NCBI RefSeq assembly: GCF_004309355.1
Contig: NZ_BJCC01000025.1
Coordinates: 1 to 64,000, forward strand
From: Enterococcus florum
GTDB taxonomy: Bacteria > Bacillota > Bacilli > Lactobacillales > Enterococcaceae
Reading direction: 5' to 3'
Length of the DNA: 64,000 nucleotides
In this document: piece after piece, positions 11,535 through 29,854 of the stretch
Numbering within the stretch: position 1 is the stretch's first letter
How the letters are laid out: every line of letters begins with the position of its first letter
Translations under genes and position numbers: made by a program
The notes under the pieces: generated by a model
Told to the model about the DNA's origin: nothing
Seen by the model: the letters and a program-made list of their open reading frames with translations, nothing else
Databases searched by the model: none

Positions 11535-12503
11535 CTATTCTTCTGGATTTTTGATGCTGCTAGGATCAATTCCAAGGGCTTCGCACATGTCCTCGTTAAC
11601 GTAAAACTCAAGATTTTTTGAATCTTCAACAGGCATTTCTGCTGGGGTTGCCTCTCCGCGTAAAATTTTAGCGGCCATTTTACCAGTTTGAACGCCTAAT
11701 TCTTCGTAATTGATCCCGATGGTTGCTACCCCGGCTTCTTTCACATCATTGATTGCTCCAGCAACCAATGGCACCTTTTTTTCTTTCATCACATCGCCCA
11801 CGATCGTTTTGGCACTGGCAAAAGTATTGTCCGTTGGCAGGTAAATGCCATCGACTTCTTCCGCTACTGTTTGTGAAACCTGCTGAACGTCGTTAGTGCT
11901 GGTCACCGTTCGGATCACGGGTTCGATCCCTGCTTTTTTTAATTCTTTCTCTGCAATATCTGCCTGGATCTTGGAATTGATTTCTCCGGAATTGTACATG
12001 ATCCCAACTTTTTTTGCATTTGGCACGATCGATAAAAGCAATTTGATTTGCTTGGCAACTGGCGACATGTTAGTCGTTCCAGTCACATTTCCACCAGGTT
12101 TTTCGTAGCTATCAACCAATTTTGCGTCCTTTAGATCAGTCACGCAAGTCACCACAATAGGAATATCCTGCGTCGCTGTCAACAGCGATTGTCCAGCGAC
12201 GGTAGTTACTCCTAATAAAAGGTCCGGCTTTTCCTTGACTAATTTTTCACTGATGCTCTTTAAATTATCTTGACTGCCTTGGGCGTTTTGGTAATCGATC
12301 TTCAGATTTTCCCCGTCTACAAATCCTTCCTCTTCCAAACCTTTGACAAATCCAGAGTAAGAGTCGTCCAAGGATTCATGCTGGACAAATTGCAACGCTC
12401 CAACTGTTTTGACCTCGTCTTCTTCGGCGGAACCATCCTTTCCGCACGCTCCAAACACCAACAAACTAAGTAAGCCAATTCCCAATACCATTTTCTTTTT
12501 CAT
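11535..12503 (-). CDS. ABC transporter substrate-binding lipoprotein (TrpX-like family)
   Basis: A 322-residue exported lipoprotein: a hydrophobic signal peptide ends in the lipobox VFGAC with the lipidated Cys at residue 20, followed by an acidic linker. The mature part is the two-lobed fold of the ABC substrate-binding family PF04392, which includes TrpX of streptococci. Members are proposed to bind aromatic amino acids or other small ligands. No permease or ATPase gene lies beside it, so it is an orphan or feeds a transporter elsewhere. Transcription runs first through a leader with an 18-codon peptide containing four Tyr codons and a terminator, which suggests control by tyrosine supply (inference). 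Confidence 0.88.
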   Translation of the reverse strand: MKKKMVLGIGLLSLLVFGACGKDGSAEEDEVKTVGALQFVQHESLDDSYSGFVKGLEEEGFVDGENLKIDYQNAQGSQDNLKSISEKLVKEKPDLLLGVTTVAGQSLLTATQDIPIVVTCVTDLKDAKLVDSYEKPGGNVTGTTNMSPVAKQIKLLLSIVPNAKKVGIMYNSGEINSKIQADIAEKELKKAGIEPVIRTVTSTNDVQQVSQTVAEEVDGIYLPTDNTFASAKTIVGDVMKEKKVPLVAGAINDVKEAGVATIGINYEELGVQTGKMAAKILRGEATPAEMPVEDSKNLEFYVNEDMCEALGIDPSSIKNPEE

Positions 12504-12530
12504 CTGTTTTTCTTCCCTTCAAATTAAAAA

Positions 12531-12690
12531 TCACCCACTCAGATAATCCAAGTGGGTGAAGGAAAGTCGAAAAGGATACGATTTCTAGTCAGTCAGCCAC
12601 TCGAATTCTCTACGTGGCTGGTGACGCATCAAAACCTGCTAGCCATCATAGATACAAACCTGGTCGTTTGTATCCTGATGAATACAAACG
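12531..12690 (-). promoter_or_regulatory. Attenuator leader of the lipoprotein gene
   Basis: Three leader segments can pair in two mutually exclusive ways. Segment 1 (12682-12690) pairs perfectly over nine bases with segment 2 (12665-12673), and segment 2 pairs over eight bases with segment 3 (12652-12659). An intrinsic terminator follows: nine-base arms (12551-12559 and 12531-12539) and a T-rich tract, 28 bases before the gene. Segment 1 starts three bases after the leader peptide stop, as in classical amino-acid attenuators. No T-box consensus was found. Confidence 0.7.
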
Positions 12691-12693
12691 TAT

Positions 12694-12750
12694 CTAATAA
12701 TAGCTAACGTAATAACGATTATTCAGTTGTTGTTTATTTAAATGAGTCAT
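12694..12750 (-). CDS. Tyr-rich leader peptide, 18 residues
   Basis: An 18-codon frame starting with ATG seven bases after GGAGGG. The peptide is MTHLNKQQLNNRYYVSYY, with four Tyr codons in two pairs, the last pair directly before the stop. It lies between a consensus promoter and the alternative hairpins upstream of the substrate-binding lipoprotein. A ribosome slowed at the Tyr codons would cover segment 1 of the leader and change the folding. Its small size means coding cannot be proved from sequence, but ribosome site, composition and placement agree. Confidence 0.65.
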   Translation of the reverse strand: MTHLNKQQLNNRYYVSYY

Positions 12751-12781
12751 GGTAAAACCCTCCAACTGATAAGTTGCACTT

Positions 12782-12810
12782 AGTATACCTCAATAAAAAT
12801 GAAATGTAAA
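12782..12810 (-). promoter_or_regulatory. Promoter of the leader peptide and lipoprotein
   Basis: TTTACA (12805-12810) and TATACT (12782-12787) spaced by 17 bases, about 30 bases before the leader peptide ATG. Confidence 0.85.
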
Positions 12811-13186
12811 TGAGAGTTTTTATTTTTTTATAATCAAAAAGCTTTGTCAATTTTATTCAATAGTTTGACTACTGACTGTGGCGTTTTGTTTGCCAAGATA
12901 ATCCGCCAGTCTTTTGGGATCGCACCTGGATAGTGTGTGATCTAGTTCAAACTACGCGCTTGAATCCTAGTCCATTCTACTGTTTTCAATTGCTCCAAAA
13001 CGTACTCTATTATACCCCAGCCAAAACGTTTTTTTTCTGAAACACGATTTGTCCCAGCAGTAGATTGAATGTATTTCCTGAATGCAACAGTCTAAAGCGT
13101 AAGCACCAACAACCACTGATTCTAGCGTTAAGACTGCTTTTTCTTCTGGGTTCTTTCATCGTAGGTGGCTCAGAATTTCAATTCCG
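12811..13186. other. Gene-free stretch
   Basis: About 375 bases between the lipoprotein promoter and the DUF2798 gene. I see no frame with a ribosome site, no terminator with a T run and no recognisable RNA. Confidence 0.5.
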
Positions 13187-14411: not shown

Positions 14412-15785
14412 TTATTCTGCTTCTGCTTCTCGCAGGGTTCGCTCTTTAATTGACTTGTCGATCAGCCACTCGCCGACCCCGACAGCCAATCCAACACCCA
14501 CAACCAAGAAGAGCACGTAGGAAACGGGGTCTTCCCCTTCTGGCGGTAAAAAGAAGAAAATTGTACTGAAAGCAAAGAAGATAAATTGTACACCGGATAC
14601 CAATTTTCCGATCCCGTCACCGCCAGGAATTCGAAACGGCCGTTCGATCTCTGGATCTTTCTTTCGCAAAGTAATAAATGCGAAGGACAAGATGAGGTAC
14701 GGCAAAAAGAAAATAATTGACGTAAATGAAAGCAGCGTCCAAAACAGATTGGCATTACTTGATGAGATGAACCCATAAAAGATCAATAGCGCAGTAGAGG
14801 ACAAGCCTAAAAGGATAGCCGATCCAATCGGTGCATGGACCTTGTTAGTTTTCGCAAAAATTTTAGGCAGCTCCCCTTCCAAGCCTGCCTCCAAAGCCGC
14901 TTTGTTTCCCCCTAAAGCCCAGCTGAAAATGTACCCTAAAAAGGCAATAAATGAAATCACTCCTACAATAGTCACTACGCCTCGTCCAAAAACAGTGCCG
15001 AATGCAGTAAACAGGCCCGAATCTGGATCGATCTGGTCGACTGGCAAAATTACCAGAATAGCCATTGCAGCAATAATATAAAGAACGATCGTACAAATCC
15101 CGCTGGAGAATACTGCTTTTGGTACATTTTTACTTGGATTTTCCATCTCCCCTGCCGAACAGCTGATCAAGTCATAGCCGGTCAAGGCATACACGTAAAC
15201 CGGGACCAACGAAAAGAAGCTCAAGTCAAAGGTAGGGATGATCGTGTCCATCGTAAAGCTGGTTTGCGAGCCAGTAGTGGTCAAGACAATAACTGCGCCT
15301 ATGATCAAAGCTAGACAAGCCAATAGCTTGCAAATAGTACTCAGCATTGTCAGCCATTTGGCGTCTTGTAGATCAATACAGTTAAATGCCACTACGAACC
15401 ATGTACAAATAATACAGAAAATCACCATGCCCCAAACCGATAAATCAGGAAAGAACAGCATTTGCAGCACCGAACCCATTACCACTAGCGTGGAAGGAAT
15501 AAATCCAGCAACATTCACCCAATACCACCACGTTGTTCGAGCCGCCCATCGATCGCCGTACGCTCGTTTGATCCAAACATAGATCCCGCCTTGATCAGGA
15601 TAAGTCGACCCCAGCTCCGCACAAATCAAGCCATGCGAGAGGAAAAAGGTCAAGCCTAAAACAATAAAACAAAAGATCAGCGAGGGCCCCATTGAAGCTT
15701 GTGAGGCAATCAGCTCCAATGAGAATACCGCCGCAAAGGATAAGGAAACGATGTCGATAAAACCTAACTTTTTCACATTTTCCAT
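14412..15785 (-). CDS. APC-family amino acid/polyamine antiporter, AguD-like paralogue
   Basis: A 457-residue APC transporter with about twelve membrane segments and the family motif GLICAELGSTYPDQGGIYVW near residue 50. It is closely similar along its length to the antiporter at 20780-22147 (shared RWAARTTWWYWVNVAGFIP, CSAGEMENPSKNVPK and SWALGGNKAALEAG). AguD exchanges agmatine for putrescine. This copy lies 18 bases behind the second carbamoyltransferase, so the pair may import the substrate and export the product of that enzyme, possibly a different diamine or guanidino compound. Substrate is inferred only. Confidence 0.85.
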   Translation of the reverse strand: MENVKKLGFIDIVSLSFAAVFSLELIASQASMGPSLIFCFIVLGLTFFLSHGLICAELGSTYPDQGGIYVWIKRAYGDRWAARTTWWYWVNVAGFIPSTLVVMGSVLQMLFFPDLSVWGMVIFCIICTWFVVAFNCIDLQDAKWLTMLSTICKLLACLALIIGAVIVLTTTGSQTSFTMDTIIPTFDLSFFSLVPVYVYALTGYDLISCSAGEMENPSKNVPKAVFSSGICTIVLYIIAAMAILVILPVDQIDPDSGLFTAFGTVFGRGVVTIVGVISFIAFLGYIFSWALGGNKAALEAGLEGELPKIFAKTNKVHAPIGSAILLGLSSTALLIFYGFISSSNANLFWTLLSFTSIIFFLPYLILSFAFITLRKKDPEIERPFRIPGGDGIGKLVSGVQFIFFAFSTIFFFLPPEGEDPVSYVLFLVVGVGLAVGVGEWLIDKSIKERTLREAEAE

Positions 15786-15803
15786 CGTCTTTCAACGTCC
15801 TTT

Positions 15804-16856
15804 CTAGTTCAGCTTTTGATCAAGGAATGCCCGCATTTTACCTTCATAGTAGGCTTTCGTTTGATCATCCGCACGTTTTAATCGTGGATATAAATACCAA
15901 GCTAGGAGGCCGCGCTGCACATGAAGCCGATTCTCTGCCTCTTGGAAAACCACCGACCGTGTCGGATGATCAAGTACCTCGCTGGTGATTTCTACTTCAC
16001 GGTTGGCAGGCAAACAGTGCATTGCCTTGCAATGATCCGGCGCCATTTCCAGCATTTCCATGTTCAATTGATACCGTGGATAGAAGGCCGCTGTTCGTTC
16101 TTCTTTTTCATCCTCGTATCCATAATAATACCAAACATCAGGAATAATGAAATCTGCATTTTTGACAGCTTCTTCCACATTTTCAGTAACGGTCAAAGTG
16201 CCACCGGTCTGTGCCATTTTGGCTTCTACCTTATCGATTTCTGCTTGACTGATCGAATATTTTTTCGGTGAAGCGATCGTGTAGTTCAGTCCTAAAGAAG
16301 CTGATAAATGCGCATGTTCCATTGCCATGATGCCATTTTCGCCAGAATCTCCAACAAAAACAATATTGATGTCCTCCAGTGCTTTTCCTGGTGGCAGATG
16401 TTCCATCATAGTTAAGACATCTGCCAAGCCTTGTGTTGGATGGATGTAATACGTCATGGCATTGAAAACAGGGACAGATGCATTTTCAGCTAGTTTTAAT
16501 ACCAGCTCATGGTCTTCGGTCCTCAACATGATACCATCACACATACTCGAAAGCACTTGAGCAGTGTCTTTGATGGCTTCATGAGAACCAAAGTGGATCT
16601 CACCCGGCTTCAAATATAACGCATGGCCGCCTAATTCCGCCATCGCTGTCTCAAAGGATACCCTCGTCCGAGTTGATGGTTCTTCGAAAATCATCGCCAA
16701 AGTGGCACCTTTCAACAATTGCGGAACAGCATTTTGATACGCTGCTTCTTTCAATTGAACGATGGTGGACAAAATGTCGCGAATTTCACTTTGGGACAAA
16801 TCATAATTGTCTAAAAAATGCTTCGTTGGGTAATTTTTGTTGTGAGATAATTTCAT
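15804..16856 (-). CDS. Ornithine/putrescine-type carbamoyltransferase paralogue, substrate unassigned
   Basis: A 350-residue transcarbamylase. It keeps the carbamoyl-phosphate motif [12 protein letters not shown] (about residues 61-72), the HPTQ motif and the second-substrate loop AMHCLPANREVEIT. It differs clearly from the PtcA-like enzyme at 18645-19652, which has [11 protein letters not shown] in the loop; here HFGSHEAIKDTAQVLS and DVWYYYGYEDEKEERT replace the PtcA forms. It may act on a different amine or amino acid. It is the first gene of a two-gene unit with an antiporter, divergent from an RpiR regulator. GGAGG precedes the ATG. Confidence 0.85.
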   Translation of the reverse strand: MKLSHNKNYPTKHFLDNYDLSQSEIRDILSTIVQLKEAAYQNAVPQLLKGATLAMIFEEPSTRTRVSFETAMAELGGHALYLKPGEIHFGSHEAIKDTAQVLSSMCDGIMLRTEDHELVLKLAENASVPVFNAMTYYIHPTQGLADVLTMMEHLPPGKALEDINIVFVGDSGENGIMAMEHAHLSASLGLNYTIASPKKYSISQAEIDKVEAKMAQTGGTLTVTENVEEAVKNADFIIPDVWYYYGYEDEKEERTAAFYPRYQLNMEMLEMAPDHCKAMHCLPANREVEITSEVLDHPTRSVVFQEAENRLHVQRGLLAWYLYPRLKRADDQTKAYYEGKMRAFLDQKLN

Positions 16857-16904
16857 GTCTACAATCCTCCAGTTTATTGAATCCTCTGTTTCTTCGCCAA
16901 AACA

Positions 16905-16917
16905 TCTACGCTATAAT
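16905..16917 (+). promoter_or_regulatory. -10 region of the RpiR gene promoter
   Basis: TATAAT at 16912-16917 places the transcript start near 16924, which rules out the long upstream frame and supports the TTG start at 16943. The same bases read on the minus strand (TATTAT) may serve the divergent carbamoyltransferase gene. Confidence 0.45.
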
Positions 16918-16942
16918 AAAAGGGAAGAAAGCGGGTGACCCT

Positions 16943-17716
16943 TTGACAAAGAATTTTTATACTTCTGCTAATCAGCATTTGCCGAAATTGAATGAATCTG
17001 AGAAACGCATTTTTCAATATGTCTTGAATCATTATGACGCTGTGAAAGAATACAGTATTCGTCAATTGGCGAAAAAATGTTATGTCTCTTCGGCCACGAT
17101 CTTTCGCTTTACCAAAAAACTCGGTTTCAACGGGTACAGCGATTTTATCGACAGCTTATCTGCAACTCCTGAGACGCTGCAAACGATCCCCCATTCGATC
17201 AAGCAGAAAGACTACAAGGAAGAGTACTTAAAAAATATCAGCGAATCTGTCCGGGTAGCCAATTTGGAACGTATGGAGCAATTTGATCAACTGCTGGAAA
17301 ATGATCCAGTCATTTATTTGATCGGCGAAGAATTAGATCTGCAGGCCTTGCATTATGTGCATTGGCTTTTTACTGCCCAAGGCTTTCGATCCATTTTAGT
17401 GTCTGATCAAGCTGCGATTCGCAATACTCTCAATACTATCAGCGACAACGATATTCTGTTTGCCTTTGCTTATACAGGCGACAGTCCAAAAATCATCGAA
17501 ATGATCGAAGGGGTCAAACAACACTCGCAGGCAACGGTCGTCACCTTTACCCGCGCAGTGACTAATGTTGTTCAAAATTTGTGCGACATCGATTTTTACA
17601 TTTTTACCGATGAGATCGTATACGATAGTCTCGATATGACGTCACGGATCTCGATGATCGCCATCATTGAGCTGCTGCTTTATCAGCGCATCAAACGTTC
17701 GATCACGAATGAATAA
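16943..17716 (+). CDS. RpiR-family regulator within the agmatine region
   Basis: A 257-residue regulator with an RpiR helix-turn-helix (YVSSATIFRFTKKLGFNGY, about residues 45-63) and a C-terminal SIS-like domain. The open frame extends upstream to 16673, but that part is antisense to the carbamoyltransferase. A TTG at 16943, after GGGTG and downstream of a TATAAT, is the likely start. The only plus-strand gene of the region, it lies between the two halves of the agmatine cluster and overlaps the 3' end of arcC by 14 bases, tail to tail. The known E. faecalis agmatine regulator AguR is LuxR-type, so an RpiR here is a different solution. Effector unknown. Confidence 0.8.
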   Translation: MTKNFYTSANQHLPKLNESEKRIFQYVLNHYDAVKEYSIRQLAKKCYVSSATIFRFTKKLGFNGYSDFIDSLSATPETLQTIPHSIKQKDYKEEYLKNISESVRVANLERMEQFDQLLENDPVIYLIGEELDLQALHYVHWLFTAQGFRSILVSDQAAIRNTLNTISDNDILFAFAYTGDSPKIIEMIEGVKQHSQATVVTFTRAVTNVVQNLCDIDFYIFTDEIVYDSLDMTSRISMIAIIELLLYQRIKRSITNE

Positions 17717-18632
17717 TCGTTCCAGCTTCTGCTGTGATTGCCTGAGCCACCTGCTCTAGATCGGCAATGATGGCAGTTTTTTGTTTGCCGCTGCTAACGA
17801 ATTCACATGCTGCCTGAACCTTCGGCAGCATACTGCCTGCCGGAAATTGATTATCCGCCATGTGCTGCTCCATTTCGTCTAAAGAAACTTTTTTCAGGGC
17901 CGTTTGGCTTTCTTTGCCGAAATTGATATATACATGATCCACCGCAGTCAGAATAATGAACATATCTGCATCAATTAGGCTGGCCATTTTGGAGGCTGCA
18001 AAATCTTTGTCGATCACGGCATCCACTCCCTCATAGCGTGTCCCGTGATAAACGACCGGGATGCCTCCGCCACCGCAGGCGATTACAACTTGCCCAGCAT
18101 CTACCAAGGTCTGCAAACTGATTTTTTCGTAAATATCGATCGGTCTAGGAGAAGGAACCACTCGCCGCCAGCCTCTGCCAGAATCCTCGTGGTAGATTTC
18201 GCCTGTTTGATCCATCAATTTTTTAGCTGCTTCTTCGGTATAGTAACCGCCGATTGGTTTGGTCGGGTGTTTAAATGCCGGGTCATCACCATCGACCACG
18301 ACCTGCGTCAGCATCGTAATAACGGGTGTTTCATTGATGTTGCGGCTGACCAGCTCTTCATCGATCGCCTGCTGCAAATGATAGCCGATGTACCCTTGGC
18401 TCATTGCGATGCATTCAGCGAAAGGCATGATTTCTTTCCCAGCTTCGGCTGCTTTTTCAAAAGCTAAACGAATTTGTCCCACTTGTGGACCATTGCCGTG
18501 AGCAATCACGACTTTATGCCCCTGTTCGATCAAATCAGCGATCGATTTAGCGGCTAGCTGCGCGCGGGAAAGCTGTTCGTTCGCCGAATTTCCCAATGCA
18601 TTGCCGCCTAGTGCTACAACGATTTTTGCCAT
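17703..18632 (-). CDS. arcC: Carbamate kinase
   Basis: A 309-residue carbamate kinase of the amino acid kinase family: N-terminal IVVALGGNALG, then AHGNGPQVGQI, and VIACGGGGIPVV near residue 210. It transfers phosphate from carbamoyl phosphate to ADP, yielding ATP, ammonia and CO2; this is the energy-conserving last step of agmatine breakdown. The ATG at 18632 is chosen because AGGTGGG lies before it. Last gene of the unit aguD-aguA-ptcA-arcC, starting 12 bases after ptcA. Confidence 0.95.
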   Translation of the reverse strand: MAKIVVALGGNALGNSANEQLSRAQLAAKSIADLIEQGHKVVIAHGNGPQVGQIRLAFEKAAEAGKEIMPFAECIAMSQGYIGYHLQQAIDEELVSRNINETPVITMLTQVVVDGDDPAFKHPTKPIGGYYTEEAAKKLMDQTGEIYHEDSGRGWRRVVPSPRPIDIYEKISLQTLVDAGQVVIACGGGGIPVVYHGTRYEGVDAVIDKDFAASKMASLIDADMFIILTAVDHVYINFGKESQTALKKVSLDEMEQHMADNQFPAGSMLPKVQAACEFVSSGKQKTAIIADLEQVAQAITAEAGTIIHS

Positions 18633-18644
18633 ATGTCTTCCCAC

Positions 18645-29654: not shown

Positions 29655-29815
29655 AGCGACAGACAATCTGCATCGTCTGTCGCTACACAATAATTCATTC
29701 GTGATCGAAAAAGGCCGGGCAGCTCAAATAAACGACCACCTGTCGGCTTTTTCGATGAAGAATTTTCTGATTGTATGCTCTTAACAATGCTTCATCGTAT
29801 CCATAAGTTAAGAGC
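29655..29815 (-). promoter_or_regulatory. Attenuator leader of the ABC-F gene
   Basis: Three hairpins follow one another. Arms 29807-29815 and 29777-29785 pair over nine bases, and the first arm lies inside the leader peptide. Arms 29744-29755 and 29705-29717 pair over about twelve. Arms 29675-29684 and 29655-29664 form a perfect ten-base terminator followed by T6, 39 bases before the ABC-F start. This is the layout of ribosome-mediated attenuators of antibiotic-induced ABC-F genes. Confidence 0.75.
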
Positions 29816-29854
29816 TGCTTTTCTAGTAAATCGTAAATAATAATCGTAAATCAT
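29792..29854 (-). CDS. Leader peptide of the ABC-F gene, 20 residues
   Basis: A 20-codon frame beginning with ATG six bases after AGGGAG. The peptide is MIYDYYLRFTRKAALNLWIR. It follows a consensus promoter and overlaps the first arm of the first leader hairpin, so a ribosome stalled on it would stop that hairpin forming. Coding is supported by ribosome site and position rather than by length. Confidence 0.65.
   Translation of the reverse strand: MIYDYYLRFTRKAALNLWIR

Follow-up and report, generated by a model that had tools for sequence, protein, structure and literature searches.

The window, a stretch of 64,000 nucleotides at the start of an Enterococcus florum contig (NZ_BJCC01000025.1), carries on its minus strand an orphan gene for a substrate-binding lipoprotein of family PF04392. 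The gene that follows on this strand is neither a permease nor an ATPase gene; it encodes an aldehyde dehydrogenase. Upstream of the lipoprotein gene lie a short leader frame, a series of segments with alternative pairing partners and an intrinsic terminator:

12782..12810, minus strand: promoter-like site TTTACA-17-TATACT (consensus scan, 10/12)
12759..12763, minus strand: Shine-Dalgarno sequence GGAGG
12694..12750, minus strand: leader peptide MTHLNKQQLNNRYYVSYY with its stop, 18 codons, frame read from the sequence
12690..12707, minus strand: segment A, overlapping the last Tyr codons and the stop; partner D (off state)
12680..12689, minus strand: segment B; partner C
12666..12675, minus strand: segment C; partner B or the 5′ part of D
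12640..12659, minus strand: segment D; partner A (off) or E and C (on)
12608..12619, minus strand: segment E; partner F (off) or D (on)
12595..12605, minus strand: segment F; partner E (off) or T5 (on)
12531..12559, minus strand: intrinsic terminator hairpin (T5 12547-12559, T3 12531-12543), then a U tract
12523..12707, minus strand: match to Rfam RF02863 (sRNA_2410), 61.1 bits
11535..12503, minus strand: orphan substrate-binding lipoprotein gene, PF04392 by family model

A first-pass annotation made from the letters alone had reported a promoter, a ribosome site, an 18-codon frame with four Tyr codons ending in Tyr-Tyr-stop, and an intrinsic terminator, and each of these is present at the positions listed. 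The leader frame runs from the ATG at 12750 to the TAG at 12696-12694; its four Tyr codons fall within the last six codons, and it contains no Phe codon. The consensus scan covered 2.4 kb and returned seven promoter-like sites of this quality where 4.5 were expected, which makes the promoter match weak taken alone; its placement is consistent with a transcription start shortly 5′ of the leader. The covariance-model score of RF02863 is barely above the gathering score of 61. The T-box model RF00230 had no match in the window at its gathering threshold and none at E up to 1 within 12400-12900, and a T-box reading of the leader was dropped on this ground; the window genome as a whole has 21 RF00230 hits, 10 of them above the cut-off.

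Two further features of the window are recorded here. The Rfam uup RNA (RF03060) matches 29777-29824 on the minus strand with 42.6 bits. The region 14412-18644 holds an amino acid permease, a carbamoyltransferase that scores above the cut-off of two ornithine carbamoyltransferase models and below that of the putrescine model, and a gene that we take from its sequence to encode carbamate kinase.

Of 105 genomes of the family, 101 have an RF02863 match in profile searches, as do 215 of the 395 genomes searched from the order; the 14 control genomes have none. The window genome has six matches, five of them above the cut-off. They precede the lipoprotein gene at 12503, two further PF04392 binding proteins, a DAHP synthase-aroB pair, a shikimate kinase gene and an aroC-tyrA-aroA-aroK-pheA operon, in which aroA and aroK are presumptive names given from sequence. 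We compared 136 loci, mostly the best matches among the matches listed rather than a random sample. Every one of them has a short frame overlapping the start of the element, with a cluster of Phe or Tyr codons at the end of the frame or close to it. The comparison of leaders among relatives that the first-pass annotation had proposed thus found the Tyr/Phe codons conserved over all 136 loci. The leader stop lies at a common place in 124 of them and up to nine codons away in the others. The last ten residues include both Phe and Tyr in 130 leaders, Phe only in four and Tyr only in two, and no Trp codon occurs in the 136 leader peptides.

When the 52 non-redundant leaders were put into register, Phe or Tyr codons stood at -7 in 42, at -6 in 52, at -5 in 51, at -3 in 50 and at -2 in 52. 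In the numbering of the stall scan below, the counts for the same 52 are 6 at -8, 40 at -7, 52 at -6, 51 at -5, 1 at -4, and 49 each at -3 and -2. The gap at -4 is filled by the Ser codon AGC in 48 of the 52 and position -1 by Arg in 50. The leader frame had an ATG open to the aromatic codons at 136 loci and the two remaining frames at 7 and 1, a contrast partly given by construction because the frame is that of the chosen leader. In addition, Gln-Leu-Asn ahead of the aromatic cluster (12729-12721 in the window) is kept in 103 of 136 leaders, and 38 of the 52 non-redundant leaders spell it in seven synonymous ways. Retention of the tripeptide under varied synonymous codons is a sign that the leader is translated. 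The tripeptide is conserved at the peptide level although it lies outside the paired segments, and it also occurs in 9 of 30 Trp leaders described below.

Genes downstream of the element, assigned by clustering with family models run on representatives, were PF04392 proteins or shikimate-pathway enzymes at 133 of 136 loci. They comprise 86 PF04392 proteins, 36 shikimate dehydrogenases, six DAHP synthases, two chorismate synthases, and one each of shikimate kinase, dehydroquinate synthase and prephenate dehydratase; the remainder are an SBP_bac_3 protein (L114), a misread frame (L019) and a contig end (L132). On the same strand, which was the one searched, a frame begins within 267 bases of the element at 135 loci. 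These counts bear on the possibility that RF02863 acts in trans as a small RNA, the type under which Rfam lists it, and that the leader frame is incidental. In the accessible text of PMC5593968, sRNA_2410 of E. faecium Aus0004, predicted at 195 nt, gave two transcripts on Northern blots. A terminated leader would likewise yield a stable short RNA, and the constant proximity of same-strand genes of so few kinds also speaks against action in trans, which we consider extremely improbable.

Reading the element as a cis-acting attenuator, we turn to its folding. The first-pass annotation had described three segments able to pair 1:2 or 2:3, which correspond to B, C and D, and both B:C and C:D can indeed form. 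It had also left a gap between the 2:3 pairing and the terminator. That gap is real for B:C:D alone, which stops short of the terminator and was rejected as the full switch; it is bridged by D:E and F:T5. The earlier description lacked segment A and its pairing to D, as well as the D:E, E:F and F:T5 helices that link D to the terminator. Together A:D, D:E, E:F, F:T5 and T5:T3 form a chain that joins the leader to the terminator.

For the structural comparison, four of the 136 loci (L106, L123, L140, L141) were left out, D not being recognised in them. Twelve more (L010, L022, L074, L092, L095, L116, L120, L130, L132, L135, L136, L137) were removed by hand because the wrong terminator hairpin had been picked, E:F was itself the terminator, or the contig ended. 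The 120 retained loci gave 52 non-redundant sequences at 75% (alignment A1); alignment A2 also omits L083 and has 51 rows. Over the 52 loci, segments adjacent in the chain pair strongly, with mean energies of -11.0 to -19.1 kcal/mol; for six other combinations of segments the pairing is weak (-2.7 to -6.6 kcal/mol). The native energy of F:T5 is -11.0 against -8.3 when partners are permuted among loci, and none of 2000 permutations reached the native value, also within gene class. D:E, E:F and T5:T3 likewise beat their permutations; for A:D the contrast is less sharp, 6 and 1 of 2000 reaching the native value.

Covariation was found for both states. Alignment A1 gave 203 compensatory cells for the off state, where shuffles gave 59.1, and 88 for the on state, where shuffles gave 31.4; such counts can be inflated by related rows, and both state structures were drawn from the row of the window. 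The share of cells paired was 92.7% in the off state and 93.7% in the on state. None of 500 shuffles reached the native compensatory count for either state, and slid controls were 29.6-45.1% paired. Both-side changes occur in 8 of 9 pairs of the F:T5 helix, in 13 of 13 pairs of the T5:T3 terminator (helix 6) and in 7 of 10 pairs of B:C (helix 4), which has 95.2% of cells paired. The anti-terminator and the terminator are mutually exclusive, and both are conserved.

On these grounds we hold it highly probable that the window element is a ribosome-mediated attenuator of transcription, senses charged tRNA-Tyr and belongs to a re-codable family of the Lactobacillales. According to our model, when Tyr-tRNA is ample the leader peptide would be finished, the ribosome would depart and A would pair with D; E:F and then T5:T3 would follow, and transcription would stop. 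When Tyr-tRNA is scarce, the ribosome would wait at the Tyr codons and mask A. D would then pair with E, with C taking the 5′ part of D, and F would be free for T5; F:T5 would pre-empt the terminator, and the binding-protein gene would be transcribed. We infer the stalling, the switch and the response to tyrosine from the sequence. The codon-sensing attenuation before an aromatic binder that the first-pass annotation had suggested finds support, at this level, in the comparison of 136 loci and in the match of codons to genes.

The ribosome was modelled by deleting the RNA up to 12 bases beyond the first base of the A-site codon. Folding was run on the full-length RNA, then on RNA cut at T5 and then, the T5 result being unfavourable for the window copy, on RNA cut at E. 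In full-length equilibrium folding the terminator of the window copy forms with or without a ribosome, and hence this calculation cannot test its switch. With RNA cut at T5, at least three F:T5 pairs formed at 16 of 52 loci in the free RNA, at 16 with the ribosome at the fifth codon, at 36 at the first aromatic codon, at 22 at the last and at 18 at the stop. The window copy reached only 0.0-3.4 F:T5 pairs at codons -6 to -1 in this equilibrium model, because its E:F helix is long. In L093, the nearest relative of the window copy, D:E and F:T5 are modelled as paired even without a ribosome, and in L008 (the all-Phe paralogue), L062 and L011, F:T5 was absent (≤0.13) in every modelled condition. 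We take the order of synthesis, in which D:E can form before F exists, to matter here.

With RNA cut at E, the mean number of D:E pairs over the 52 loci was 1.9-2.4 at codons -14 to -10, 7.8 at -8, 9.6-10.1 at -7 to -3, 7.3 at -2, then 4.5 at -1 and 3.8 on the stop codon. The modelled on-window coincides with the aromatic codons (-7, -6, -5, -3, -2) and is off by the stop; it also extends to codon -8, where aromatic residues are rare. Setting the footprint to 9 or 15 displaces the on-window by one codon. At least four D:E pairs formed at 16 of 52 loci in free RNA, at 49 at the first aromatic codon, at 42 at the last and at 21 at the stop. In the window copy D:E had 9.6-10.7 pairs at codons -6 to -2 and 1.9 at -1, so that it was on at three of the four Tyr codons. 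D:E did not form at the first aromatic codon of L008 (0.12).

A model built from 51 Phe/Tyr leaders (R1) matched 252 of 395 genomes of the order. It matched 32 of 348 genomes drawn from the class, five of them outside the order, and 3 of 348 drawn from the phylum, all within the order. Outside the Lactobacillales, Aliicoccus persicus (L213) has the leader MQHIHLTTTQSFYFSYFR ahead of a DAHP synthase gene. Terrisporobacter mayombei (L195) and T. petrolearius (L278) have a clostridial copy of the frame with the leader ...NLYYFSYFR before a gene of the branched-chain carrier family, and the T. mayombei gene passes the model of that family. Either an aromatic transporter is hidden in this carrier family or the codon rule fails at these two loci.

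The same model also found the frame with other codons. Among 18 genomes, chosen chiefly because their R1 matches were multiple or weak, ten leaders carry Ile or Leu/Ile/Val codons, and genes of branched-chain amino acids lie downstream of all ten: two branched-chain aminotransferases, three threonine deaminases, two acetolactate synthases and three LivK-like proteins, the last scoring below the cut-off of the LivK model. No recognised branched-chain gene stood behind the 36 other distinct loci of this table; among them, L337 and L340 have no Pfam match and genes 437 and 259 bases away, and L338 and L352 precede class I/II aminotransferases of no known substrate. The table has 49 rows, three of which (L325, L326, L341) duplicate earlier loci. 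For L328, a branched-chain leader, and L345, the second-ranked frame of the picker was used, the first-ranked being off the common frame. Segment D varies together with the codons in the branched-chain leaders. In stall scans of 16 re-coded loci, the expected on-window was clear in L328, L350 and L354; L344, L355, L359 and L364 were modelled as on at almost every codon, L353 and L346 gave no D/E call, and the remaining loci were weak or mixed. Two weak R1 matches have Trp codons: L364 (E 2.8e-4), with the leader IWQSWHR before a PF04392 protein, and L365 (E 6.4e-4), with IWYSYRR before an SNF transporter.

Some leaders of this survey precede unexpected genes. In L351 (1672-3141), behind the leader YYFGFYYFR, an MFS transporter is fused to a chorismate mutase domain, which suggests transport of an aromatic compound. 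A transketolase gene follows the leader YYYFGWFS in L339, as if erythrose-4-phosphate supply were linked to aromatic demand. SBP_bac_3 proteins (L335 and L114), a CitMHS-type protein (L342) and a 2-hydroxyacid dehydrogenase (L345) were also encountered.

Trp codons also mark the leaders of the Rfam trpB ncRNA motif (RF04312), which has the same order of parts as RF02863, a leader of the WQ(S/N)W type and, in most cases, trpX-like genes downstream; R1 matches one copy of it (E 1.8e-4). It differs in its Trp codons, and in the copy examined the Rfam match begins past the leader frame. In the window genome RF04312 precedes trpXYZ, with the leader MNQHYLSNQLNSWQNWRR. It matches 137 of 246 genomes of the order at E 0.001 and 48 of 246 above the cut-off; among 14 controls one (Lactococcus lactis) matches, below the cut-off, and some weak matches fall on RF02863 loci (among them G212:C14, G041:C1 and G248:C41). 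The 30 loci fetched, which are the top-scoring ones, all have leaders with Trp, in 27 cases as W(Q/N)xW. Behind them lie 24 PF04392-like proteins by BLAST, three pyridoxal-phosphate enzymes, which we take from sequence to be TrpB, one reverse transcriptase and two cases of no frame. The reverse transcriptase gene (L366:2047-3105) follows the RF04312 element of G160 and perhaps belongs to an intron inserted behind it.

Across these groups the RNA frame would keep one layout, in which two or three sensed codons are followed by Ser, by one or two more sensed codons, often by Arg, and by the stop, with the sensed codons rewritten to match the downstream pathway as Phe plus Tyr, Phe only, Tyr only, Trp, Ile or Leu/Ile/Val. 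This bears on two other explanations. Leaders such as TnaC and Erm act by nascent-peptide arrest, and here too the peptide might arrest the ribosome in response to some small molecule, such as a free aromatic amino acid, with no readout of tRNA charging. The peptide-level conservation of Gln-Leu-Asn outside the paired segments would fit such arrest, as would the nearly fixed Ser at -4 and Arg at -1. However, both Ser and Arg sit within segment A, and pairing accounts for their constancy; Gln-Leu-Asn is missing from all ten branched-chain leaders; and whole codon sets switch with the pathway, for which tRNA sensing is the simple account. We regard arrest by the peptide as improbable. Alternatively, a DNA-binding regulator or a small-molecule riboswitch could be in control, the leader peptide being passive or serving for fine-tuning. 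A candidate protein site, the ARO box, was reportedly described before aro genes of streptococci by Panina et al. in 2003, in work on aromatic regulation in low-GC Gram-positives. Against this, codon content fits gene function while the remaining RNA stays alike, and on inspection of the alignments by eye no binding pocket besides the alternating helices stood out; control of this kind appears highly improbable. Sensing of charged tRNA by leader codons remains our preferred reading, and a single ancestral attenuator RNA with a fixed helix frame was probably re-coded many times in lactic acid bacteria.

In the downstream proteins the ligand pocket is in accord with the leader codons in the case of Trp. 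The nearest solved structure to the window lipoprotein is CD0873 (6hni, E 3.9e-72), and with 319.2 bits against the NCBIfam TrpX model NF041285 (cut-off 390, not reached) the lipoprotein is TrpX-like. According to the accessible text of PMC6816091, the ligand is Tyr for CD0873, Phe for VC_1101 and Trp for SP1069, the nearest solved homologues, and Gln-284 of SP1069 stands in for a Tyr and gives space for Trp. At this site we found Gln in 25 of 25 Trp-leader proteins (24 fetched loci and trpX of the window genome) and also in the protein of L364. The window protein has Tyr, not the Gln of SP1069, and so have 106 of 106 distinct readable Phe/Tyr-leader proteins, which come from 108 rows with two repeats and many near-copies, one further protein being truncated. 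Because the Trp group is one clade, this split may reflect a single event. The window protein is supported as a putative aromatic amino acid binder. The known pocket site does not discriminate Tyr from Phe. An argument for Tyr specificity from Glu-263 of CD0873, which binds the Tyr hydroxyl, was unsupported, the window protein and L093 having Ala at this position.

The all-Tyr leader of the window is rare. Its exact pattern occurs in 4 of 105 genomes of the family; the exact all-Phe pattern occurs in 5 of 20 genomes of the genus and is present in all four all-Tyr genomes, including that of the window, which holds an all-Phe paralogue besides the all-Tyr copy. The proteins behind the all-Tyr and all-Phe leaders are sisters in the tree (100/97). 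Further pairs of Tyr-rich and Phe-only leaders in the protein tree are L348/L330 and L332/L350, L332 retaining one Phe codon. Compared with the common leader, the all-Tyr leader has one inserted A, which turns Tyr-Phe-Arg-stop into Tyr-Tyr-stop, and a change of Phe to Val. A third paralogue, with a mixed leader, adjoins permease and ATPase genes, which the two orphan binding proteins probably share.

Several known systems resemble the element. The his operon attenuator of Salmonella and E. coli likewise has alternating helices set by ribosome position, A:B, C:D and E:F against B:C and D:E; it differs in sequence, phylum and amino acid, and we claim no shared descent. The pheA and pheST attenuators of Proteobacteria have Phe codons in their leaders, whereas the leaders here carry Tyr alone, Phe alone or both. 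The T-box, which reads uncharged tRNA directly, serves the same need of sensing tRNA charging in the window genome and is another RNA. Amino acid control in Firmicutes is usually attributed to T-boxes, as the first-pass annotation had noted. This view needs qualification: according to the accessible text of PMC9413887, his genes of the B. cereus group, the Peptostreptococcaceae and the Erysipelotrichales have predicted leader-peptide attenuators. In that of PMC8632094, the uORFC-13-1 motif of Acholeplasma has a predicted uORF with a Phe codon before aroF, followed by a terminator. The literature searched, mostly open-access, held no account of the RF02863 family as a regulator, nor is the family described in the accessible portions of PMC8632094, PMC2494555, PMC9382623, PMC1262725, PMC9413887 and PMC6429828.

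A probable attenuator family has hitherto stood in Rfam as an sRNA, and its Trp relatives as the trpB motif; the RNA filed there as sRNA_2410 is the same as that of the window, which we read as a leader-peptide attenuator. Matches lie in 252 of the 395 genomes of lactic acid bacteria searched, and leader-peptide attenuators on this scale would change the T-box picture for aromatic and some branched-chain genes. If one RNA was re-coded as proposed, a single superfamily would comprise RF02863, RF04312 and the ilv/liv leaders. The leaders would form a natural set of sensors distinguished by their codons, and the rule that specificity follows codon identity is open to a direct codon-swap test. Rewritten within an RNA frame that stays constant, the codons may act as a label that predicts the ligands of orphan and otherwise uncharacterised transporters, and the four paralogous binding proteins of the window genome would be labelled by their leaders as Trp, Phe, Tyr, and Phe plus Tyr.
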